From Rhizobiaceae bacterium (GTDB lineage Bacteria > Pseudomonadota > Alphaproteobacteria > Rhizobiales > Rhizobiaceae): a DNA stretch of 60,574 bases. Positions 19,848 to 60,574 of this stretch are shown one piece after another. The stretch is taken from contig JARGOX010000003.1 of NCBI GenBank assembly GCA_029233925.1, forward strand, positions 318,470 through 379,043. The letters run 5' to 3'. The notes beneath the pieces are model-generated. The model was not told where the DNA came from and searched no databases. It saw only the letters and a list, made by a program, of their open reading frames with translations. Each line of letters begins with the position of its first letter. The stretch's first letter is position 1. The position numbers and the translations under genes are program-made.

Positions 19848-20729
19848 CTATCCAGCAAATGGCGGCAATATCAATCCCTTGACCCCGACATCGACCGCGA
19901 ACAATCCACCGGGGTGTTTTTGCCCGACAAAATGCTCCGGCGGCCGGCGCAAAACCGCTGTTGTGACATAAAGAATGTCGAGATCCTTGCCGCCGAATTC
20001 ACAACAGGTCGGCAGATCGGTGGGCATCTCGATCGTTTGCATCAACCGGCCGTCCGGATCGTAGCGACATACCTTGCCGGTCACCGGGATAGTCACCCAA
20101 TAGCACCCTTCCGCATCAACAGTGGCGCCATCGGCAACACCTCCGGTCACAGACATGTCGATGAAGATTCGACGGTTTTCAATCGCCCCCGTGGCCGCGT
20201 CAAAATCATAGGCCCATACGGCCCCCGCATGGCTGTCGGAGAAATACATGATGCGGCTGTCAGGGCTCCAGGCGAGCCCGTTGGAGCAGCCAATCCCCTC
20301 GATCATGCGGTGAACGCTGAGATCTGTGTCCATGCGATAGAGAGCACCGGTAAATGCAATGGGCTGACCCGGTACTTCGAACATGGTGCCAGACCAGAAG
20401 CGCCCCTGGCGATCACATTTACCATCATTGAAGCGGGTATCCTCCAGATGCGCTTCGGGATCGCAGATGGGATCGAAGCGCCCGGTTTCCGGGTCAAAAA
20501 AGTGAAATCCGTCGGCCATGGTGAGCACCAACCCACCGCTTTTGCGAAGCCCAAGGCACCCCAGATATTTCGGGGCCTGCCATGTCTCATCAACACCGGT
20601 TTGCGGATTGTAGCGATGAATGAGCTGGCCCCAAATATCAATCCACCAAAGAACGCCATTTGCGGGATCCCATACGGTTCCTTCGCCCAGTTGCGCACCG
20701 GCATCAACCACACATTTGATATCAACCAT
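19848..20729 (-). CDS. SMP-30/gluconolactonase-family sugar lactonase
   Basis: Encodes about 293 residues forming a six-bladed beta-propeller. The metal-binding residues are seen as LGEGTVWD (Glu), NDGKCDRQGRFW, CSNGLAWSPD (Asn) and VADGATVDAEG (Asp). The family hydrolyses sugar lactones to sugar acids using a divalent metal. No signal peptide is visible, so it is cytoplasmic. Its start overlaps the stop of the CUT2 permease gene by eight bases, making it the last gene of that transport operon. This suggests the imported sugar is oxidised to a lactone. Confidence 0.92.
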   Translation of the reverse strand: MVDIKCVVDAGAQLGEGTVWDPANGVLWWIDIWGQLIHRYNPQTGVDETWQAPKYLGCLGLRKSGGLVLTMADGFHFFDPETGRFDPICDPEAHLEDTRFNDGKCDRQGRFWSGTMFEVPGQPIAFTGALYRMDTDLSVHRMIEGIGCSNGLAWSPDSRIMYFSDSHAGAVWAYDFDAATGAIENRRIFIDMSVTGGVADGATVDAEGCYWVTIPVTGKVCRYDPDGRLMQTIEMPTDLPTCCEFGGKDLDILYVTTAVLRRPPEHFVGQKHPGGLFAVDVGVKGLILPPFAG

Positions 20730-21717
20730 TTTCCGTTCCCTCTTTTATCCGTTTCCTGCGGTTTGAAGCCGAGGCCCACATTTCGGAAAACGTCTCGCTG
20801 CCAATCGAGACCGTCAGCAATATGACCGCCCCATAGACCACCAGAAGCGCACCGCTTGAAAGATTCAGCGCCGGCAGGAGGCCTGTGAGTATGGTCAGCA
20901 CCAAAGCACCTGCAACGGTTCCGATATAGTGGCCACTGCCTCCCAGTATCGGCGCACCACCAATGGCCACGGCGGCCACCGTTGTGAACAGATAGGAATC
21001 GCCCATGCCGAGATAGGCCACACCGGAATAGCCGGTCAGCAGGATACCACCAAGCGCCGCCGTCATGCCCGAAATGACATAGGTCAGGATTGTGGTGCGC
21101 GTCGTAGGCACGCCGGAATAACGCGCAACCGTCACATTGGTGCCCACCGCATAGAGGTGTCGGCCAAAGGCCGATTTCGACAGCAAAAGCCAGGCAAGGA
21201 CTGTCAGGGCCGTCCAGATCAATGCAATCACCGGGATCCCGCTGATGCGCCCGACCGAAAGAAACTTGATCATGTCGGGTGCAGCCGGCGTTGGCGTGCC
21301 GCCGGTGAACACCAGAATCAAGCCCTGCAAGATGACGTTGGCAGCCAGCGTCATGATGATCGGCGGAACACCCAGCAAAGCCACGCCGGCACCGTTGAGC
21401 AATCCGATCAACCCACCACCGGCCAAAAGCAGCGGCACCACCCATATCAAAGGCAGGTCCTGACCGGCGCACAGCAAAGTCATCAGGACCGCCGCCGAAT
21501 TGAGCACCCAGGGTATGGACAGATCAATGCCACCGCCGATGATGACAAAGGTCTGCCCCAGCGCGACAATGCCGACAAAAGAGGCGAGGATGAATGTGGA
21601 TCGCAAATTCGATGCAGACAGGAAACCGGGCGAAAAGAATGCCGTAATCAGGACCAGCAACAGCATGCCGATATAGGCAAGAACAATCAGCCGGTTGCGC
21701 GAAAGGAAGGTGTTCAT
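20722..21717 (-). CDS. CUT2 sugar ABC permease (RbsC-like)
   Basis: Encodes about 331 residues with about ten membrane helices. The family mark GGGIDLSIPWVLNSAAVL is near residue 65, and GGAPILGGSGHYIGT is near residue 260. The final helix LLVVYGAVILLTVSI is present, which matters for comparison with the fused permease at 57508-59553. Start overlaps the preceding gene as ATGA. It pairs with the permease at 21714-22709. Confidence 0.93.
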   Translation of the reverse strand: MNTFLSRNRLIVLAYIGMLLLVLITAFFSPGFLSASNLRSTFILASFVGIVALGQTFVIIGGGIDLSIPWVLNSAAVLMTLLCAGQDLPLIWVVPLLLAGGGLIGLLNGAGVALLGVPPIIMTLAANVILQGLILVFTGGTPTPAAPDMIKFLSVGRISGIPVIALIWTALTVLAWLLLSKSAFGRHLYAVGTNVTVARYSGVPTTRTTILTYVISGMTAALGGILLTGYSGVAYLGMGDSYLFTTVAAVAIGGAPILGGSGHYIGTVAGALVLTILTGLLPALNLSSGALLVVYGAVILLTVSIGSETFSEMWASASNRRKRIKEGTENG

Positions 21718-22709
21718 GAGCCTCGTTTCCGTGCTTTTTGTTCAGCATAGGAACTTGCAAGAACGGCCAGCAGCAAGATGACGCCTGACATGACCGGTTG
21801 CCAGTAACTCGATACCCTGAGGACAAACACCAGGTTGCCGATCAGTGTCAGGATATAGGCGCCGACAATCGTGCCGAACAGATGGCCACGTCCCCCGAAC
21901 AGGCTGACACCACCAATAATCGCCGCAGCAACCGAGGGCAATATGTAGTCGGTGCCAATATTGGGTGAACCACCGCCGATCTGCGTGGTCAGATAGAGCG
22001 AGGCGAGTGCTGCGAAGAATCCCGACAATCCGTAGGTGATGATATTGATCCGGGTGATGGAAACACCGGAGAGGAATGCCGATTTTTCGCTTGAACCCGT
22101 TGCCTTGATGATCGTGCACAGGCGCGTGGCGCGAAACCAGCACCAGAAGACGATAAGCGCCAAAAGGATCCACACCGGTGTGCCCAGGCCCAAAAACTCC
22201 AGATAGCCCGACCCGATCCACCATTCGGGCACTTTGCCGCCATCGGTCGGCAGGATCATGAGCGCGATGCCGTTCAGAATGGACCAGCCGGCCAGGGTTA
22301 CCAGGAATGGCTGCAGCCGCAGAACCGAAATCAGCAAACCTGTGAGAGCGCCGATCCCGAAACCAATGGCCAGAATGATGCCTGACCAGAGCAGGATATT
22401 TGCCGGATCGTCACCGAACCGGGTGGCCGCAATCACTGTTCCCAGGGAGATCATCCCGCCGATGGAAAGGTCAATGCCACCGCGCAGAAGTACGATTGTC
22501 TGACCGGTTGCCGCAAGCATCAGGGTCATGGCCGCAGCCGTGTTCAGATTGATCTCGTCAATGGTGAAGACGCCCGTCTGCAGCGAGCCGTAAATGGCCA
22601 CGATGACAACGAGCATGGAACAGGCAACCAGGAATGGTGCATGCGCCAACAACCGCGATTGCATGTTCATCGACTGTGCGCTCTGCAATTGTTTGGAAGA
22701 CGAATTCAT
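21714..22709 (-). CDS. CUT2 sugar ABC permease (RbsC-like)
   Basis: Encodes about 331 residues with about ten membrane helices. It contains RGGIDLSIGGMISLGTV and GGVSLFGGRGHLFGT, typical of RbsC/XylH permeases, and a complete last helix VMSGVILLLAVLA. It is about 30 percent similar by eye to its neighbour and would form a heterodimer with it. The N-terminal 25 residues are polar and probably cytoplasmic. Confidence 0.93.
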   Translation of the reverse strand: MNSSSKQLQSAQSMNMQSRLLAHAPFLVACSMLVVIVAIYGSLQTGVFTIDEINLNTAAAMTLMLAATGQTIVLLRGGIDLSIGGMISLGTVIAATRFGDDPANILLWSGIILAIGFGIGALTGLLISVLRLQPFLVTLAGWSILNGIALMILPTDGGKVPEWWIGSGYLEFLGLGTPVWILLALIVFWCWFRATRLCTIIKATGSSEKSAFLSGVSITRINIITYGLSGFFAALASLYLTTQIGGGSPNIGTDYILPSVAAAIIGGVSLFGGRGHLFGTIVGAYILTLIGNLVFVLRVSSYWQPVMSGVILLLAVLASSYAEQKARKRGS

Positions 22710-51184: not shown

Positions 51185-52057
51185 TCAGGCAGCATCTCTC
51201 AAAATGCTTGCGGCAATGGTCTCGGCTGCTTTCAGAGCGGCCAGGTCAATGCCTGTGCGAAGCCCCATCGCCTCCAGCAAGGTAACCACCGCGCCCGTTG
51301 CCACATTGCCACTGGAGCCCGGTGCATAGGGGCAGCCACCCAGGCCGCCGACGGAGGAATCGAAAGTGCGCATTCCCCGCTCAACGCAATGCCGTATCAT
51401 CTCCAGTGCCGTGCCGTGGGTATCGTGAAAATGCCCGGCCAGCAGATCGGCTGACATTGTATCCAGCAGCACATCCAGCAATGCCGCCATGGTCTCGCGG
51501 TTTCCCGCACCGATCGTATCGCCGAGTGAAACCTCGTAACAGCCCATTTGAAGCAGCCTTGCGGCAACATCGCAAACCTGAGCCGGAGCAACAGCTCCCT
51601 CAAAGGGACAGGCGATGACAGCAGACAGATAGCCCCGCACGGGCAGACCCGCTATACGGGCCTGTTCCAGCACCGGCTCAAACCTTTCCAGGCTCTCGTC
51701 AATGGAACAATTGAGATTGGCGCGGCTGAAAGCCTCGGAGGCAGAGGCAAAAATGGCAATTTCGTCCGCCCCGGCTTTCAGCGCATGCTCAAACCCTCTC
51801 AGATTGGGCGTCAACACCGTATAACGTACATCGGGTTTGCGCAGTATGCCCTGCATGACCTGCGCGGCATCCTTGAGCTGCGGCACCCATTTGGGGCTGA
51901 CAAAACTGGTCGTCTCTATTTTTGTGAAGCCCGACTGAGCCAAAGCATTGACCAGCCGGATTTTCTCCTGCGTCGGAACCTCGAGCGACAGGCTCTGCAA
52001 ACCGTCGCGGGGTCCCACTTCAAAAATCATTGCGGCGTCATCTGTCTGTCGGTTCAT
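51185..52057 (-). CDS. mvaB: Hydroxymethylglutaryl-CoA lyase
   Basis: Encodes about 290 residues. The N-terminal metal/substrate motif EVGPRDGLQ, the SFVSPKWVPQL stretch, the HFHDTHGTA metal histidines and the family signature SVGGLGGCPYAPGSSGN, with the active cysteine, are all present. The enzyme splits 3-hydroxy-3-methylglutaryl-CoA into acetyl-CoA and acetoacetate. AAGGTGAAG precedes the ATG. It lies 50 bp after the HMG-CoA reductase gene, which points to mevalonate breakdown rather than leucine catabolism. Confidence 0.93.
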   Translation of the reverse strand: MNRQTDDAAMIFEVGPRDGLQSLSLEVPTQEKIRLVNALAQSGFTKIETTSFVSPKWVPQLKDAAQVMQGILRKPDVRYTVLTPNLRGFEHALKAGADEIAIFASASEAFSRANLNCSIDESLERFEPVLEQARIAGLPVRGYLSAVIACPFEGAVAPAQVCDVAARLLQMGCYEVSLGDTIGAGNRETMAALLDVLLDTMSADLLAGHFHDTHGTALEMIRHCVERGMRTFDSSVGGLGGCPYAPGSSGNVATGAVVTLLEAMGLRTGIDLAALKAAETIAASILRDAA

Positions 52058-52107: not shown

Positions 52108-53406
52108 CTACTTGCTTAGCAGTTCGGCAGCCCTGTCGACGGTCACGTCACCTGCCTCCGCAATCTGTTTGGCAATACGGTCCACATCGGCACCGGTTGC
52201 TCCGGCCAGAATGGCTATATTGCGCGCGTGCAGCGCCATATGTCCCTTTTGAATGCCTTCGGTGGAAAGCGCCCGCAACGCAGCCATATTCTGTGCCAGA
52301 CCAACCGCAATGGTCACTTCCGCCAACTCGCTGGCAGAGGTCACATTCATCATGCGCAGTGCGGCCCGTGCTGCCGGATGGGTTTTTGTGGCGCCGCCCA
52401 CAAGGCCCAGAGCCATGGGCATCTCTATGGTTCCGACCAGCGAGCCCGCCCCATTGATTTCCCAGCGGGACAGGGAGGTGTATCGCCCGTCGCGCGCCGC
52501 ATAGGCGTGTGCGCCAGCCTCGATCGCGCGCCAGTCATTGCCGGTGGCAACCACCACCGGATCAATGCCGTTCATGATACCCTTGTTGTGTGTCGCTGCC
52601 CGATAGGGGTCGACAATGGCCAGTGCACAGGCCTGCACGATGCCTTCCGCCACGCGCGCACCATCCAGATCCTTCGTGCTCAGCGCATCCGCAGTAATTT
52701 CGACCCGCGCCCGCGCCAGCCGATGATCGGCCAGATTCGACAGAATGCGAAGGCGTACCTGGCCGCCGCTGATTTCCTCGACACGCGGCGCCAGCATTTC
52801 AGCCATGGAGTTGACCACATTGGCCCCCATGGCATCGCGCACATCGACGAGCAGATGTAGTACGACGAGGGGGCCAATAGGGGTATCTTCAAAGATATGC
52901 ACCTCGATATCCTTGCAACCGCCCCCCAGTCCGATGAGCATCTTGTCGCGGGAATTGGCACGTTCCATCAAATCGTCACGCGCCGAAAGCAGACGCTGTC
53001 TGGCACCATAGGGATCCGTGATATTCAGGATCTGGATCTGGGCCCGCATGATCGGCAATGTCGACGATGTGGTGAAACCACCACAGTCGCGCGCGATCTT
53101 CGCCATATAGGAAGCGGCAGCAACCACCGAGGGCTCTTCCACCGCCATGGGAATGAGGTAGTCGGTCCCGTTGATCACAAAATTTCCGGCAACGCCCAGC
53201 GGCAATTCGAATTTGCCAATGACATTCTCGATCATGCCATTGGCAAGTGAGACCGACAGTGCGTCCTCACCGGCAAGAGCCCGCTCATCTTGCGCATCCA
53301 GCCCTGCTGCCTCGCACACAACGGCGCGCCTTCCGGCAGGTTCGAGTCCGCGAAGATTGGCTATGCGTGAATTGATTTTCTTGACGGTTGACCCGTTTCC
53401 GACCAT
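52108..53406 (-). CDS. mvaA: Hydroxymethylglutaryl-CoA reductase, class II (degradative)
   Basis: Encodes about 432 residues, without the membrane domain of class I enzymes. Seen are the catalytic Glu in [23 protein letters not shown], the lysine in [11 protein letters not shown] and the [10 protein letters not shown] segment with the catalytic His. Class II enzymes usually run oxidatively in mevalonate-degrading bacteria, forming HMG-CoA with NAD+. Start is the ATG after GGGAGG; an earlier in-frame ATG lacks a ribosome site. It is divergent from a MocR-type regulator. With the downstream lyase it converts mevalonate to acetyl-CoA and acetoacetate. No mevalonate transporter is next to it. Confidence 0.93.
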
Positions 53407-53535: not shown

Positions 53536-54924
53536 ATGATGAACAAGACTGAAAAAATCGTCCAGGCGATTGCAGCGGATATTGGTGAAGGCATCCTCAT
53601 GCCTGGCCAGCGCATCGCCTCTGTCCGTCAGGCATCCGAGGTCTATGACGTATCAAAGAACACCATCATCGAGGCCTATGAACGCCTTGCTGCCAAGGGT
53701 CTGATTTCCGCCAAGCGCGGATCCGGATATTATGTTTGCGAACGTCGGCTTTCGATCCGGGAGACCAGCATGCCGCCGCCCCGGCATGTATTGGAAGCCG
53801 TGGACAGGATTTCACTGCTGCAATCGCAGTTGAACCAGGATTTTGCCGTCCGCGTCGGCGACGGTCGCCCACCAGCCTCATGGATGGAAGGCGCAATCCC
53901 CAGCCGATTGATCAAGCAATTTTTTCAACCCGATGGCAGCGATCGCAGCGGATATGGCAGCTTTCAGGGCCACACCGAGTTGCGCGAACTGATTGCCGCG
54001 CGCAACAGGTTGCACAACATCAATGCCAGCGCCAATCAGATTGTCACAACCTTCGGCGCCAATCACGGCCTTGATCTGATCATCCGCCGCTATCTGGTTC
54101 CCGGTGACACTGTTCTGGTTGACGATCCGGGCTATTATCCGCTGTTTGCCAAACTGGAACTGGCACAGGTCCGCTTTGTAGGCGTGCGCCGCACAGCCGT
54201 CGGGCCGGATCTTGATGATCTGCAGAAAAAGGCCGAGCAGGAAAACCCTGCATTCTTTTTTACCCAGTCCACCGGCCAGAACCCAACAGGCTCGTCCATC
54301 GATTTGCCAACCGCGCACGGCGTTCTGCAGATCGCCAACAAGACCGGCATGATCGTTGTCGACGATGATCCATTTGTCGACCTGCCGAATGGAGCAGGAA
54401 TACGCCTTGCTTCACTTGACCAGTTCCAGTCGATGATCTTCGTCGGTTCCTTTTCCAAGGTGATATCCGCCAGTTTTCGCTCCGGCTATATCATTGCACC
54501 GGCCAATATCGCCGCTGAGATTGCCGAATCGAAATTGATCACCTCGATCAACAGTTCGCGGTTTTCGGAAATGATGATCGCCGAGATGATCAAGAGCCGA
54601 CGCTACCACAAACACCTGCAGAAACTCGATCGACGTCTGGGCGAAACACAAACAGCCTATATGAGCCGGATCGACCAGTTGGGACTGGAACTCTTCACCC
54701 GCGACACCCACGGCTACTATTCCTATATCATATTGCCACCGGGGGTCTCGGATCTGGAATTTGCCAGGGACGCGGCCCGTGCGGGCATTTTTATTGCACC
54801 CAGCACGCCCTTTGCGGTGCAAAAGGATCCGCATGTCGCAGCCATCAGGATCAATATCACCCGTGCTGATGACACACGGTTCTTCAATTTTATGCGCAAT
54901 TATTTCAAGAACATTCGATCATGA
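53536..54924 (+). CDS. MocR-family regulator (GntR winged helix plus aminotransferase-like domain)
   Basis: Encodes about 462 residues: a GntR-type winged helix (about 5-75, VRQASEVYDVSKNTIIEAYE) and a type I aminotransferase-like domain (about 115-460). The PLP-binding lysine is in GSFSKVISASFRSGY and the PLP-contacting Asp in VVDDDPFVDL. MocR proteins use PLP as effector or sense an amino compound. It is divergent from mvaA/mvaB, the probable target operon, with an inverted repeat between. ATG 53539 is an alternative start. Confidence 0.9.
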   Translation: MMNKTEKIVQAIAADIGEGILMPGQRIASVRQASEVYDVSKNTIIEAYERLAAKGLISAKRGSGYYVCERRLSIRETSMPPPRHVLEAVDRISLLQSQLNQDFAVRVGDGRPPASWMEGAIPSRLIKQFFQPDGSDRSGYGSFQGHTELRELIAARNRLHNINASANQIVTTFGANHGLDLIIRRYLVPGDTVLVDDPGYYPLFAKLELAQVRFVGVRRTAVGPDLDDLQKKAEQENPAFFFTQSTGQNPTGSSIDLPTAHGVLQIANKTGMIVVDDDPFVDLPNGAGIRLASLDQFQSMIFVGSFSKVISASFRSGYIIAPANIAAEIAESKLITSINSSRFSEMMIAEMIKSRRYHKHLQKLDRRLGETQTAYMSRIDQLGLELFTRDTHGYYSYIILPPGVSDLEFARDAARAGIFIAPSTPFAVQKDPHVAAIRINITRADDTRFFNFMRNYFKNIRS

Positions 54925-54930
54925 AGCGCA

Positions 54931-56433
54931 CTAATGAACAGCAGCATACATGATGCTTTCTTCATCGGCGGTTTCAATAGGCAGCTCTTCGACAATACGC
55001 CCCTGTCTTGCCACCAGTATGCGGTCACTGAGCGCCATGATTTCCGGAAGATAGGAAGAAATGACAATCACCGTGGCGCCTGCGTCAGCAAGCTTTTCAA
55101 TGGTTGCATGTATTTCTGAAATGGCGCCGACATCCACACCGCGCGTAGGTTCGTCGAAGATGATGATATCAGGACTTTGCACCAGCGATTTGGCGATCAC
55201 CACCTTTTGCTGATTGCCGCCCGAGAGTTCCACCATGCGCGCCTCGGCGCCGATTGCCTTGACCTGAAGCGCCTTTATCCACTGATCAGCCAATTCTTTG
55301 ACCTGCGCGCGATGAATGACCGTCAGCGGACCGCCATATTTGGCCAGATGACCATTGAAGATATTCTGTCCGATGCCCATCGTGTCAAACATGCCATCCA
55401 GCTTGCGGTCTTCCGTGACATAGGCAATGCCGTATTGCATAGCGGCTGCCGGCACCTTGAAACGTACCGGCTTGCCGTTGATCAATACCCGGCCACCATT
55501 GCGAAAATCGCGCTTCAATATGCCTGCTGCGATCTTCATCATTTCGCTTCGTCCGGCGCCCACCAGTCCGAACAGGCCGGTTATCTGGCCAGAATAGGCC
55601 GTCATGGTTGCTCCGCGCACAATTTTGTCCATGGACAGATTCTGCAGGCTCAATGTGGGCTCTCCCAGCTTTCGCGCCTTGCGCTGAACACGGCCGGGGT
55701 GAATTTCATCTTGCAGGTCCCGGCCCACCATATCGCGAACTATGCTGCTGCGTGAGAATTCAGAGACATGGCCATTGCGCACCAATCTTCCATCACGCAG
55801 CACGGTGATCCTGTCGGCTATGGACAGGGCTTCTTCCAATGCGTGGGTGATAAACACGATGGCGTGGCCTTGCGCTTTCAAATTCCTGACGAGGGTAAAA
55901 AAGTGATATTTTTCCTCCGGTGTCAGCGTCGCTGTCGGCTCGTCGAATATCAGGACATGGGCATTGTGATGGACGGCCCTGGCGATCTCCACCATCTGTT
56001 TTTTTGCAGCCCCAAGCGTTGACACAAGCGCTGTCGGCTCCACAGGAAAACTCAGCCGCTGCAAATGCTGCTGGGCCCTGATATTGACCCCGCGCAAGCG
56101 ATTGAAGAAATTTTCTTCCCCCAGAAAAATATTCTGCGCAACACTCATGGAGGGAACAAGGTTGGTCTCCTGAAAAACCATGGCAATGCCCTTGCCAAGC
56201 GCATCCGCCGGCGATGCAAGCTGCGTGACCTGCCCCTTCAGGATGAGCTCGCCGGAGGTCAGTGGAAACAGCCCGGCAAGAATTTTCATCAAGGTCGATT
56301 TTCCCGCGCCATTCTCGCCCAGCAGGGCATGCACTTCGCCTGGCAGCAGATCAAAATCCACCTGGTCAATGGCAATATTGCCACCGAAACTTTTTGTCGC
56401 CTTGCGAAATTCAACAACCTTCTCAATGCTCAT
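54931..56433 (-). CDS. CUT2 sugar ABC ATPase, two-domain (RbsA/MglA-like)
   Basis: Encodes about 500 residues with two ATPase domains. First: Walker A GENGAGKST, Walker B VLIFDEPTATL. Second: signature LSGGNQQKV and Walker B IIIFDEPTRGVDVG, both intact, unlike the paralogue at 22713-24215. It is the last gene of the operon that includes the permease-propeller fusion. It overlaps the previous gene by 11 bases and converges on the MocR gene. Confidence 0.93.
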   Translation of the reverse strand: MSIEKVVEFRKATKSFGGNIAIDQVDFDLLPGEVHALLGENGAGKSTLMKILAGLFPLTSGELILKGQVTQLASPADALGKGIAMVFQETNLVPSMSVAQNIFLGEENFFNRLRGVNIRAQQHLQRLSFPVEPTALVSTLGAAKKQMVEIARAVHHNAHVLIFDEPTATLTPEEKYHFFTLVRNLKAQGHAIVFITHALEEALSIADRITVLRDGRLVRNGHVSEFSRSSIVRDMVGRDLQDEIHPGRVQRKARKLGEPTLSLQNLSMDKIVRGATMTAYSGQITGLFGLVGAGRSEMMKIAAGILKRDFRNGGRVLINGKPVRFKVPAAAMQYGIAYVTEDRKLDGMFDTMGIGQNIFNGHLAKYGGPLTVIHRAQVKELADQWIKALQVKAIGAEARMVELSGGNQQKVVIAKSLVQSPDIIIFDEPTRGVDVGAISEIHATIEKLADAGATVIVISSYLPEIMALSDRILVARQGRIVEELPIETADEESIMYAAVH

Positions 56434-57511
56434 CGCTAGCACCCGCCCTCATCATCAACAGGGAGCCACTGCCCTTTGAGGCTGCAACGATATGCTCGCC
56501 GAAACGCAATGCGGCACTGATGCCATGCATCTGTCCATCAGCCCGGCTGTGCCAGCTTTCAAGCGGAGCGAAGTCACCATCACACGAGATCACCAGACCG
56601 CAGGAGGACGACGGCGCCCATGGTTTCATGACCCCCATCTGGCGCACTTCCCCTTGCAACAGCGGATAATTGGCCGAACGCGGCCGTCCATAGGTCGGAC
56701 CAACCCATTCATCTTCTTCCAGTTTTGCAAGCATGTTCTGCAGGAAACCCGGTTCACGCAAAATGAATTCATAGATTTGCCGTCGTGGCGCAAAAAGCGA
56801 CACCAGATAGAGCCCGGCACTGTCAACGCTCAATCGTCCGGGATAGGCAGGCAGGTCGGCCAGCAGCATGCGCTTGAAAGCGCCCTGTGGTGACAATGCC
56901 ACCACCCGATGCGCCCAGGCCTCTGCAACAATGAGGCCGCCATCTGCGTCAATCACAAGTCCGGCTGGATAGTGCAGGCCACCGGCCACTGTGCGCACCC
57001 TGGCCTGCGCAGGATTCACGAACAGGATTTCACCATGTGAATTGTGCTCGAATAAATCCCGACGCCAGGCGGAAATGGGGTTCGCGTTGGAACCGATTGC
57101 ACAATAGAGGCCATCATCGGCATCAAAATGCAAAGCCGTCACACAGGCACTGTGTTTTTCCGACAGTGCAATTTGTTGCCACTGGTCGTCGGCGGACCGC
57201 AGCCGCAGACCCTCGCCGAAAAGCGCAATGGCAAGCAATCCCGAGGCCGCAACGGCAAGGGCGGTAATCGGACGGTCAAATGCCTTGATCAGCGTGACTT
57301 CGCCATCTTCGGCGCGCAGGGACAACAGCCTGTTTTCCGATGTGAAAACCAACTCGCCATTCAAAACGGCCAAATCGTCAATATGCGCACCAGTCCAGAC
57401 GATGGACGCGCGATCCAGATGATCATTGGGCCGCAAAGGCCCGTCCATGGTCGGAACATAGAGGCCATGATCCGATTGGTTGGCCTGCCTGCGCCCAAAC
57501 AGTCGCATCAT
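56423..57511 (-). CDS. Beta-propeller protein of the SMP-30/strictosidine-synthase-like group
   Basis: Encodes about 362 residues. Propeller blades are seen as GGLHYPAGLVIDADGGL, VAEAWAHRVVALSPQG and LPAYPGRLSVDSAGLY. It resembles the C-terminal half of the neighbouring fusion protein and may have arisen by duplication. Several canonical positions are changed (PAYPGR where strictosidine-synthase-like proteins have PGYPDN), so lactonase activity is uncertain. No signal peptide is seen. Start overlaps the fusion gene stop as ATGA. Confidence 0.72.
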   Translation of the reverse strand: MMRLFGRRQANQSDHGLYVPTMDGPLRPNDHLDRASIVWTGAHIDDLAVLNGELVFTSENRLLSLRAEDGEVTLIKAFDRPITALAVAASGLLAIALFGEGLRLRSADDQWQQIALSEKHSACVTALHFDADDGLYCAIGSNANPISAWRRDLFEHNSHGEILFVNPAQARVRTVAGGLHYPAGLVIDADGGLIVAEAWAHRVVALSPQGAFKRMLLADLPAYPGRLSVDSAGLYLVSLFAPRRQIYEFILREPGFLQNMLAKLEEDEWVGPTYGRPRSANYPLLQGEVRQMGVMKPWAPSSSCGLVISCDGDFAPLESWHSRADGQMHGISAALRFGEHIVAASKGSGSLLMMRAGASDEH

Positions 57512-59553
57512 GATGACAGCCCCCAATAGGCGGTATTGGCATCCCAATTTTCATCGGCCTCCGCCAGGCGGATCCGGCCAATGCGATTGTTCGTGACGCC
57601 GCCGAGGTAAAGCCATCCCCTGTGTTCCCGCATTGATGTCACAGAGGGCAATTGTTCTCCGGCGGCTTCCCACAGGCTTTGGGTGACCTTGCCATCCGCA
57701 TTGACCTTGATCACGCAGCCCTTGTTGATATTTGGAAATAGCCATTGATCCGCTGGAATACGAACGGCCATGCGCCGACGAAAGGATGGATGTTGCATCG
57801 TCAGATCAAATGCCGGTGTGCGCATGCCCAAAAGCGCAATCCAGTAGCCACCGTCTGATGCGCGATTGATATTGTCCGGATAGCCGGGCAGATTATCGAG
57901 AAAAATCTCGCGGCGGCCTTTGCGCGGACCGGCAAACCAGTATCGGTTGATGCGACACGCCCAGGTTTCAGCAAACAGCAGGGAATCTCCATCGGGACAG
58001 ATGGTGACGCCATTGGGGAAGATCAGGTTCTTCAGCACGGTGCGGGTTTTGCCGCTTTTCGGGTCGTATTCCAGCAGGCGGCCATTGCCCCGGCCCTCGA
58101 GCGCATCAACGGCCCATTCCGTCATTTCATAGCGTTTGGTGGCCTCGGTGAAAAAGATGCGGCCATCGGGCGCAATATCCAGATCGTCCGGCAGGCGAAG
58201 CCGGGAATCGTCAATGATCGAGGTCAGGCTTCTGTCTGTTTCATCGGTCACCTTGCTGACCACACCATCGGGTGAAACCCGGTAGACGCCCATTCCGCCC
58301 ACACAGGTCAGCAGATTTCCGGAGCCATCAAAGGCCAGACCGAGCGGATGGCCACCGATTTGCGCGAAGACCTCGTGCCGGACAAAGTCCGGCGCGAAAA
58401 ACCGCACAATCTCGCCGTGCCGCGTGCCGGTATAAAGATTTCCCTGGCGATCCAGAATCACGTCTTCAGGCCCTTCGACCGTACCCTGACCAATGATCTC
58501 GGCATCGCCCAACAGATCGTTGACGGCAAAGACCGAGCCATCCGTGATGGCCGGCGCCTTGTCGAGCGCCATATAGGTAGGGGAAACATAGACCTTGCCC
58601 AGAATTTTCTGGCGGTTTTTCACCCATTTTGCATCGAAAATAACCGCGATGATGAGAACGAGGGCTGCTCCAATCAAGGCATTGCCAACAGACCCGCGGC
58701 CGCCGCCAAGGGAGACACCGGCCAGCACGACGGCTGTCAGAACCTGCACTTCCAGCCCGATCCCGGTATCCGATCCCGTGCTGCCCAGTCTGGCTGAAAA
58801 AAGGAAGGCCGCCGTTGCAGTCAAAAGCCCCGAACAGATATAGGCAATCGCAACCGTGCGTTTGACATGGATACCCGAATTATGCGCCGATTTCCGCGAT
58901 CCGCCAACGGCCCTTATGTGCCAGCCGATGCGCAACCGCGTCAGCATGATATGCGCGAAAAAAGCGATGACGGCAAAGATCAGGAAGGATACCGGCAGGT
59001 TCATATATTCGCCGAAGCCGATGAAATCCCAAAGCGGGCTTTCGGCAAATCCGCCGACAATGCCGCTGGCCAGTCTGGGAAAGGCGATATCATAGATGGA
59101 CCTGAAAATGACCAGCGTCACCAATGTGGTGATAAAGGCCCGCAGCCCGATATAACCGATCAGGATTCCATTAAGCGCACCGCACAGAAAGCCGGCCAGC
59201 AATGTTGCACCAAAGGCCAGATAGATGGAGACGCCGAGCACATTCATCATGGTCAGCGCAACCAGAACACACAGGGCAAACATCGAACCGATGGAAAGGT
59301 CTATGCCCCCGGACAAAAGGACGATTGTCAGGGCAATGGCCAAGAGCCCGAATTCAGACAATTGTCGACTTTGATCGGACAGGCTTCCGAGGGAAAAGAA
59401 ACCCGGAATGAGGATCGAGATAATGATGACCATGACCAGCAGAACGGCCGCAGGTATGACGCTGTCAATCCAGCTCTTTGTCAACAGTTCGCCCAGAAAG
59501 CGTGCCGAAAAGATCCGGTAACGACGCGGCGTTACCACGGGGATGCGGGTCAT
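57508..59553 (-). CDS. CUT2 permease fused to an SMP-30/strictosidine-synthase-like beta-propeller
   Basis: Encodes about 681 residues. Residues 30-315 are an RbsC-type permease with SGGIDLSIGSMFALCVLV and AGVSLGGGRGSVGNALIGA. Residues about 340-681 are a beta-propeller with NGVTICPDGDSLLFAETWA and LPGYPDNINRASDGGYWIALL. Both other CUT2 permeases in this window have a further membrane helix after the GGGRG segment; here the chain goes from VLIIAVIFDAKWVKNR straight into soluble sequence. If RbsC topology holds, that would put the propeller in the periplasm. The only permease of this operon. Confidence 0.88.
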   Translation of the reverse strand: MTRIPVVTPRRYRIFSARFLGELLTKSWIDSVIPAAVLLVMVIIISILIPGFFSLGSLSDQSRQLSEFGLLAIALTIVLLSGGIDLSIGSMFALCVLVALTMMNVLGVSIYLAFGATLLAGFLCGALNGILIGYIGLRAFITTLVTLVIFRSIYDIAFPRLASGIVGGFAESPLWDFIGFGEYMNLPVSFLIFAVIAFFAHIMLTRLRIGWHIRAVGGSRKSAHNSGIHVKRTVAIAYICSGLLTATAAFLFSARLGSTGSDTGIGLEVQVLTAVVLAGVSLGGGRGSVGNALIGAALVLIIAVIFDAKWVKNRQKILGKVYVSPTYMALDKAPAITDGSVFAVNDLLGDAEIIGQGTVEGPEDVILDRQGNLYTGTRHGEIVRFFAPDFVRHEVFAQIGGHPLGLAFDGSGNLLTCVGGMGVYRVSPDGVVSKVTDETDRSLTSIIDDSRLRLPDDLDIAPDGRIFFTEATKRYEMTEWAVDALEGRGNGRLLEYDPKSGKTRTVLKNLIFPNGVTICPDGDSLLFAETWACRINRYWFAGPRKGRREIFLDNLPGYPDNINRASDGGYWIALLGMRTPAFDLTMQHPSFRRRMAVRIPADQWLFPNINKGCVIKVNADGKVTQSLWEAAGEQLPSVTSMREHRGWLYLGGVTNNRIGRIRLAEADENWDANTAYWGLSS

Positions 59554-59574: not shown

Positions 59575-60574
59575 CTACTTGAGCGCGTCCAATGTCCAGC
59601 AATTACGCGGGTTCACATTGGATTTGTCGATCAGGGTGAGCGGATTGAAATAGACCGCCTTGTTGTCGCCAGCCTTGGCGTCGGACTGCAGGAGCCGTGC
59701 GATTTCCGCATTCAGGATATCACCCTGCAGAGGCACATTGTAGCTGATATACAGATCGAACATGCCATTCGAGACATTTTCACAACCGACCGCGTTGCCG
59801 CCGCCGCTGGTCACCAGAAACACCTGATCCTGTTTGCCGGCCTGCTTGATTGCAGAGGCCGTGCCGGTATCCTGATTGTCCCAGATACCGATGGATCCGC
59901 AAAGGTCCGGATGCTGCTGCAAAACGGTGTCCATGATGGAACGCGCCTTTTCGGCATTGTATTCTGTCGCCTGCTGGGAAACGACCTCGATTTCCGGGTG
60001 CTTGTCCAGCACACGATAGATGCCGTCGAGCTGGAACACATCCGATGCGGCTGTCGGCACGCCCGTGTCGATGGCAACCTTGTTGGAGGGTCCCTTGCCT
60101 TCACTGCATTGTGCAACAACCGCATTGGCGGCCTGCTCGCCGATCTCCGTCCAGTCCGCACCGACATAGCTGTCCGTTGTCGTGTTGGATTCCAGATTGA
60201 TCTGCAGGATCTTCACACCCTTGGCCTGAGCCTGCTTCAGCAGACGCGCATAGGATTGAATATCGGGATTGTGGACGACGATGAGATCCGGTGCTTCTCC
60301 GATGAGCGACTGCAGGGCTCTGGTGCCGGCATCGGTGCTCCAGGCAGGATCGCGAATCTCAAAACTGTATCCCAGGCGGTCCGCCTGTTTGCGCATCTGG
60401 GCTGCCCATCCCTCGGTCAGGTCGAAACCCATCGAGAGCGGCAGAAATGCGACGGTCTTGCCGGACAGATCGCTATGAAACTTGGTGCTGCGCGGATTTT
60501 CCAGACCCTTGGTGCCCTGAGCTGTAGAAGACTCGACTTGATCTGACACCGCTGCCTTTCCAGAGGACTGGATT
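59575..60574 (-). CDS. CUT2 sugar-binding protein, 5' end beyond the window (partial)
   Basis: At least 332 residues are visible. A GTG at 60549 could start the frame, but the frame stays open to the window edge and no signal peptide is seen, so the true start lies outside. It is an RbsB-fold protein: VAFLPLSMGFDLTEGWAAQM, IGEAPDLIVVHNP and GIWDNQDTGTASAIKQAGK. The gap to the permease-propeller gene is only 21 bp, without a hairpin, unlike the other ABC operons here. The sugar ligand is unknown. Confidence 0.88.
   Translation of the reverse strand, partial: IQSSGKAAVSDQVESSTAQGTKGLENPRSTKFHSDLSGKTVAFLPLSMGFDLTEGWAAQMRKQADRLGYSFEIRDPAWSTDAGTRALQSLIGEAPDLIVVHNPDIQSYARLLKQAQAKGVKILQINLESNTTTDSYVGADWTEIGEQAANAVVAQCSEGKGPSNKVAIDTGVPTAASDVFQLDGIYRVLDKHPEIEVVSQQATEYNAEKARSIMDTVLQQHPDLCGSIGIWDNQDTGTASAIKQAGKQDQVFLVTSGGGNAVGCENVSNGMFDLYISYNVPLQGDILNAEIARLLQSDAKAGDNKAVYFNPLTLIDKSNVNPRNCWTLDALK

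Follow-up and report, generated by a model that had tools for sequence, protein, structure and literature searches.

Importers of the CUT2 class (RbsC/AraH-type, PF02653) combine a permease domain with a double ATPase and a binding protein encoded in the same operon. RbsC has ten helices, and both of its termini are cytoplasmic. Strictosidine-synthase-like propellers include plant strictosidine synthase, TGW6 and animal APMAP; strictosidine synthase itself forms a C–C bond and is not a metal hydrolase. Propellers of the SMP-30/gluconolactonase, DFPase, PON1 and RPA3624 lactonase type are also relevant here, and the metal ligands of SMP-30, DFPase and PON1 are of the Glu/Asn/Asp type. We describe a gene that joins a CUT2 permease to a strictosidine-synthase-like propeller. 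It lies in a 60,574-nt stretch of a Rhizobiaceae genome (GenBank assembly GCA_029233925.1, contig JARGOX010000003.1, positions 318,470 to 379,043), referred to below as the window. The initial annotation had noted that this permease lacks its last helix, and had proposed that the propeller is thereby placed in the periplasm. The observation stands and the topology argument fails; what remains is a widely conserved transporter–propeller fusion. Taken as a whole, the locus is probably best explained by a conserved transporter–propeller family, present here as a deletion copy, in which a cytosolic hydrolase is carried on an importer.

The fused gene and its family

The fused gene has the following parts:

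57508..59553, (-) strand, fused gene, CUT2 permease and strictosidine-synthase-like propeller, 681 aa from ATG; in-frame deletion copy
58636..59553, (-) strand, permease domain, residues 1-306, with nine hydrophobic helices remaining
58636..58692, (-) strand, hybrid helix, residues 288-306, start of transmembrane helix 9 (TM9) joined to end of TM10; the AlphaFold helix is broken here
58652..58659, (-) strand, deletion junction, 8-nt word GTTCTCAT, which the sister species has twice at a distance of 72 nt
58534..58635, (-) strand, basic juxtamembrane stretch and linker (KWVKNRQK..KVYVSPTY), residues 307-340
57511..58533, (-) strand, propeller domain, residues 341-681; presumed metal ligands E363, D456 or D457, N514 and D560

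Translation and Pfam searches confirmed that the permease and propeller share one 681-residue frame. BPD_transp_2 matched residues 64–304, SSL_N 341–385, Str_synth 456–542 and SGL 444–576, all above their gathering scores, and the permease domain scored 102.7 bits against PF02653 (cut-off 26.8, E 2.5e-29). NCBIfam models for ribose and arabinose permeases ranked best for this domain, but the cut-off of no permease model was attained, the fused protein scoring 151 bits with the best model, which requires 398. By hydropathy, nine helices precede the propeller, one short of the ten of CUT2 permeases; the window's two other CUT2 permeases (20722–21717 and 21714–22709) have ten each. The initial annotation had noted in both of these one more helix after the GGGRG motif.

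The same comparison was extended to 20 further CUT2 permeases of this genome, fetched from 46 places matched by the fused protein; the 46 include the fused gene itself, the second propeller described below and genes matched in two pieces. Two hydrophobic segments follow the GG-G motif in 19 of the 20, and one in the fused protein. The remaining permease (L145) is of normal length, with a final segment under the hydropathy threshold. The genome search gave a single full-length fused match and no second intact fused copy. Nearly all of the 46 matches were made through the permease half, which in our judgement is a large CUT2-type set for one genome.

Fused relatives were collected from several samples. 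In a sample of 398 genomes of the phylum, all 17 places with E < 1e-160 (the window included) had frames of 688–840 aa, and 13 weaker matches lay in frames of 354–520 aa. Permease, SSL_N, Str_synth and SGL models were all matched in the 55 members scanned. Among 394 genomes of the same family, 80 matched the propeller and junction at E ≤ 1e-20, the weaker of them unfused. The 112 fused relatives that were aligned comprise 29 from this family sample and 83 named loci, namely four plasmid regions and 79 loci from a GTDB scan that took the best 80 of 556 confirmed places, and so samples the nearest relatives; some assemblies are present twice (L010 and L041, for example, are the same). Named records of the fusion come from alpha-, beta- and gammaproteobacteria, on both chromosomes and plasmids. 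The fusion is old and conserved, and its family has a ten-helix CUT2 permease with a C-terminal propeller.

Some members are already in the databases. Entries of about 2.1 kb named 'SMP-30/gluconolactonase/LRE family protein', on named plasmids of Shinella, Celeribacter, Paraburkholderia, Sulfitobacter, Paracoccus, Salipiger and Pantoea, are the same fused gene. These labels cover the propeller only (one record reads ABC (ATP-binding cassette) transporter permease, and one RbsC) and state no function.

The genes beside the fused gene complete a transport cassette:

59575..60522, (-) strand, sugar-type periplasmic binding protein (Peripla_BP_4), limited here to its mature part; the signal peptide is encoded on contig C40
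56423..57511, (-) strand, second propeller, unfused, of 362 aa, sharing 4 nt with the fused gene; metal-ligand positions N and D replaced
54931..56433, (-) strand, CUT2 double ATPase of the cassette

As in CUT2 operons, a double ATPase and a sugar-type binding protein thus lie alongside the permease. Nine of ten annotated plasmid regions share one gene order: unfused permease, binding protein, fused permease–propeller, second propeller and ATPase; the record of the tenth ends after the second propeller. The second propeller is present in 82 of the 83 named loci, the record of the other (L077) ending before it, and the unfused partner permease was recognised, at the threshold used, in 44. The family differs from other CUT2 permeases in its C-terminal propeller of about 340 residues and in the use of one fused and one unfused permease, and the window copy differs further in its nine helices. 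It shares the Str_synth, SSL_N and SGL domains with strictosidine-synthase-like propellers, but is joined to a transporter and is most likely cytosolic throughout the family.

Two short conserved segments were also seen in the cassette. All 44 partner permeases end in a tail of the form NPR(D/N)E(Q/E)T...GD(I/L) (about 2416–2460 in L130), which is found in none of the 20 other CUT2 permeases of the genome and may dock on one of the propellers or on the ATPase. The N terminus of the second propeller carries the consensus VPPMDGxLKPN (83 rows).

The orientation of the propeller was assessed from intact relatives. AlphaFold models were made with alignments of 55 rows (A3) and 56 rows (A2), picked from 78 relatives. 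The model of an intact protein from Mesorhizobium helmanticense (L043, 55-row alignment; mean predicted local distance difference test score (pLDDT) 82.9) shows ten helices, of which the final two span residues 289–308 and 313–345, and then the propeller. Across 55 intact proteins, the loops on the side of the N terminus hold on average 22.0 lysines and arginines, compared with 2.2 on the opposite side, and the difference has the same sign in all 55. The stretch past TM10 is also basic, with a mean of 6.65 such residues. Sequence searches found no solved CUT2 permease structure to serve as a topology template (P0002 at E up to 1, profile A4 at 0.001), and the matches listed by Foldseek and VIA cover the propeller only. 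Ten helices and basic loops on the side of the N terminus therefore indicate that in this family the propeller very probably lies on the cytoplasmic side, as predicted from sequence and models. A signal-like hydrophobic stretch was found within the first 45 residues in none of 81 second propellers (two of 83 rows, shorter than 300 aa, were dropped), so the second propeller is likely to be cytosolic as well. Both propellers of the cassette are thus most likely cytosolic.

The candidate solute and the chemistry of the propeller

Downstream of the cassette genes, the window carries:

53536..54924, (+) strand, MocR-type regulator, divergent from the HMG-CoA reductase gene
52108..53406, (-) strand, degradative HMG-CoA reductase (TIGR00532, 419.5 bits, cut-off 260)
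51185..52057, (-) strand, HMG-CoA lyase (NF004283, 411 bits, cut-off 246)

A degradative HMG-CoA reductase and an HMG-CoA lyase, which together make up a mevalonate catabolic cluster, therefore adjoin the cassette. Of 84 rows, 20 have the reductase gene within the fetched stretch. They fall at three places on the tree, namely a clade of 13 rows that includes the window, a clade of six rows, and Alcanivorax. The tree label 'mev' denotes this presence in the fetched stretch, and L093 (reductase 8.3 kb from the fused gene) and L056 (lyase only) are unlabelled. In the family sample the reductase occurs in 48 of 394 genomes. Seventeen of these also hold the fused gene, and in ten of the 17 the two are no more than 10 kb apart, where 0.11 would be expected. 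The binding proteins of the 13-row clade are 79–98% identical to that of the window. This gene context points to mevalonate or mevalonolactone as the probable solute in the window clade.

Several observations weigh against this assignment or limit its reach. The reductase was not found in 64 of the 84 rows, some of which are short stretches, so mevalonate cannot, as far as seen, serve as solute throughout the family. Of the 48 genomes with the reductase in the family sample, 38 have no fused gene within 10 kb of it, which shows the enzyme to be independent of the cassette. The labelled rows are related, 13 of them falling in one clade, so that 20 rows do not amount to 20 independent events. 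Neighbours in other clades are CoA transferases, short-chain dehydrogenases and, in Pantoea, a triose/tetrose-type set; the family must therefore carry other solutes too. These same neighbours would suit a solute other than mevalonate in the window clade itself, with the cassette drawn to the mevalonate genes by a related branched hydroxy acid or by co-regulation. We regard this as unlikely, given that the link to the reductase appears at three places on the tree, far above chance, and that the binding proteins of the 13-row clade are so similar.

The fused propeller matched solved members of the propeller fold in Foldseek searches, the best being TGW6 and strictosidine synthase, followed by DFPase, the lactonase RPA3624, Drp35 and PON1. 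Its presumed metal ligands E363, N514 and D560 are kept in 113, 113 and 111 of 113 aligned sequences, and D457 in all 113. We take E363, N514 and D560 to occupy the motif positions that bind metal in SMP-30 and DFPase. Unlike DFPase, the fused propeller, a predicted hydrolase, has an aspartate at the position of DFPase N120. The second propeller is homologous to the fused one (hhalign probability 99.7), but the N position is mostly A, Y, N or S, with N kept in 17 of 83, and the D position is mostly G, A or S. This pattern suggests an active hydrolase paired with a degenerate partner propeller.

Two points tell against a hydrolase. The match to the metal site is one of sequence motifs rather than of a residue-level structural alignment, and the fold also suits strictosidine synthase, which is not a hydrolase. 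On balance, we regard a hydrolase as somewhat more probable than not. The initial annotation had suggested a ligand-handling or lactonase module attached to the channel; a hydrolase or lactonase-like module is still the best reading, with E363, N514 and D560 near-invariant, while the periplasmic site proposed for it is abandoned. Alternatively, the propeller might not be an enzyme at all and might instead serve in ligand sensing or gating, reporting on solute influx or controlling it in partnership with the second propeller. The second propeller does occur in 82 of 83 loci despite having no metal site, and a regulator adjoins the cassette in the window clade, yet the ligand positions of the fused propeller are more nearly invariant (113, 113 and 111 of 113) than a purely structural need would explain, and we think a sensor rather improbable.

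A hydrolase on the importer would work as follows. The fused permease and its unfused partner would form a heterodimer, served by the CUT2 ATPase and the binding protein, with the propeller hanging from its cytoplasmic face. There the fused propeller would act as a metal-dependent hydrolase on the solute at the channel exit, probably by lactone hydrolysis, and the second propeller, without a metal site, would be a structural or regulatory partner. Because mevalonate readily lactonises, placing a lactonase where an importer releases mevalonate or its lactone is chemically sensible. In the window clade, imported mevalonate or mevalonolactone would then pass through degradative HMG-CoA reductase and HMG-CoA lyase to acetoacetate and acetyl-CoA. 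A more specific version, which we offer tentatively, is a vectorial transporter–enzyme: an ABC importer for mevalonolactone (and for related lactones in other clades) with a hydrolase on the cytoplasmic end of one of its permeases and a pseudo-enzyme propeller as partner, coupling uptake to ring opening so that the product cannot leak back.

We know of no earlier ABC system assigned to mevalonate or its lactone. If the proposal is true, the cassette would encode an ABC importer whose exit carries a built-in enzyme, and it would be the first ABC system for mevalonate or its lactone known to us; the proposal also offers a substrate that can be tested in a gene family whose present labels name just one half of the protein. 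Literature searches, judged by titles, found no description of a permease–propeller fusion or of a mevalonate ABC system. No paper was found in a search for RPA3624, and the passages of PMC13064465 that were consulted contain nothing on lactonases or mevalonate uptake.

The deletion in the window copy

The survey of relatives proposed in the initial annotation showed the tenth helix in every fused relative compared. Where the window copy has 36 residues, all 112 aligned relatives have 60, that is 24 more, so absence of the helix is specific to the window copy. Both TM9 and TM10 are hydrophobic in the 55 intact relatives. The closest relative is a sister species of the same genus (metagenome-assembled genome (MAG) JARGOF010000001.1, locus L041, the same as L010), with about 95% DNA identity. 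It retains the 72 nt, flanked at both ends by GTTCTCAT, of which the window has one copy. Loss of 72 nt bounded by 8-nt repeats, with one copy left, is the trace expected of slippage between short direct repeats. In the product, TM9 and TM10 are merged, the former contributing its first part and the latter its last. The last helix is thus truly missing from the window copy, as had been noted, but by what is almost certainly a private deletion of this genome, judging from the alignment, and not as a property of the fusion. A striking topology in one genome can reflect a single recent deletion.

The gap, seen in assembled contigs, might in principle be an assembly or sequencing artefact. We consider this very improbable, since ordinary assembly would not collapse a repeat as short as 8 nt, the gap has clean edges and preserves the frame, and the contig break upstream is explained separately by a repeated element.

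The AlphaFold model of the window copy (mean pLDDT 80.3) has a break at the junction, with pLDDT below 50 at residues 303–308, and five basic residues follow the hybrid helix. Export of the propeller in this copy would require those five residues to be outside. The odd helix number and a frame open across 681 aa, with a low ratio of non-synonymous to synonymous change against the sister, are the points in favour of a functional helix loss that puts the propeller in the periplasm, handling ligand beside the binding protein, but this is highly improbable given the helix kept in 112 of 112 relatives, the basic residues behind the hybrid helix, the absence of signal-like stretches from the 81 second propellers, a helix broken at the junction unlike that of the intact L043 model, and a binding-protein gene that is itself interrupted in this genome. 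Placement in the periplasm by helix loss is accordingly unsupported, a tenth helix and basic stretch being found in all relatives and the charge bias in 55 of 55.

State of the cassette in this genome and genus

The end of the window holds one further feature:

60523..60574, no strand assigned, end of a repeated insertion-sequence-like element at the contig end, with terminal inverted repeat TGTAGAAG...ACTTGATCTGACA; 7-nt repeat GCTCAGG at both flanks

The window cassette has two lesions, the 72-nt deletion and an interrupted binding-protein gene. The window's final 52 nt (60523–60574) have no match in the sister, and the terminal 50-odd nt recur at 13 other places of the genome, mostly contig ends, a 14th being a match of 29 nt. 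The unfused partner permease lies on contig C40, together with the part of the binding-protein gene that encodes the signal peptide, and the end of this contig resembles that of the window when inverted (8 and 13 of 26 bases match). GCTCAGG borders the element on both contigs, and in the sister the two ends meet directly on one contig. Such an arrangement fits an insertion sequence that duplicated 7 nt of its target and would have cut the binding protein at its signal peptide, the element itself being unassembled. A rearrangement between element copies is a less probable alternative.

The ratio of non-synonymous to synonymous substitution rates (dN/dS) of the fused gene between the window and the sister is 0.05 over 672 codon pairs, a count in which the pieces of the gene may share a few codons, and the gene was therefore strongly constrained until recently. 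By the same measure the second propeller evolves faster than the fused gene (0.24 and 0.05, respectively). The window copy is probably decaying. We judge it very likely that the transporter of this genome is impaired; without the interrupted binding-protein gene, impairment would be likely.

In the sister, the fused gene (L041) is frameshifted near codon 52 and, within the propeller, lacks 30 nt in frame between 7-nt repeats; the frameshift may be an error in a MAG of about 7.7-fold coverage. Two of eight genomes of the genus hold the fused gene, and we conclude that the system is being lost in the genus. Window genome and sister share 99% identity in the partner permease.
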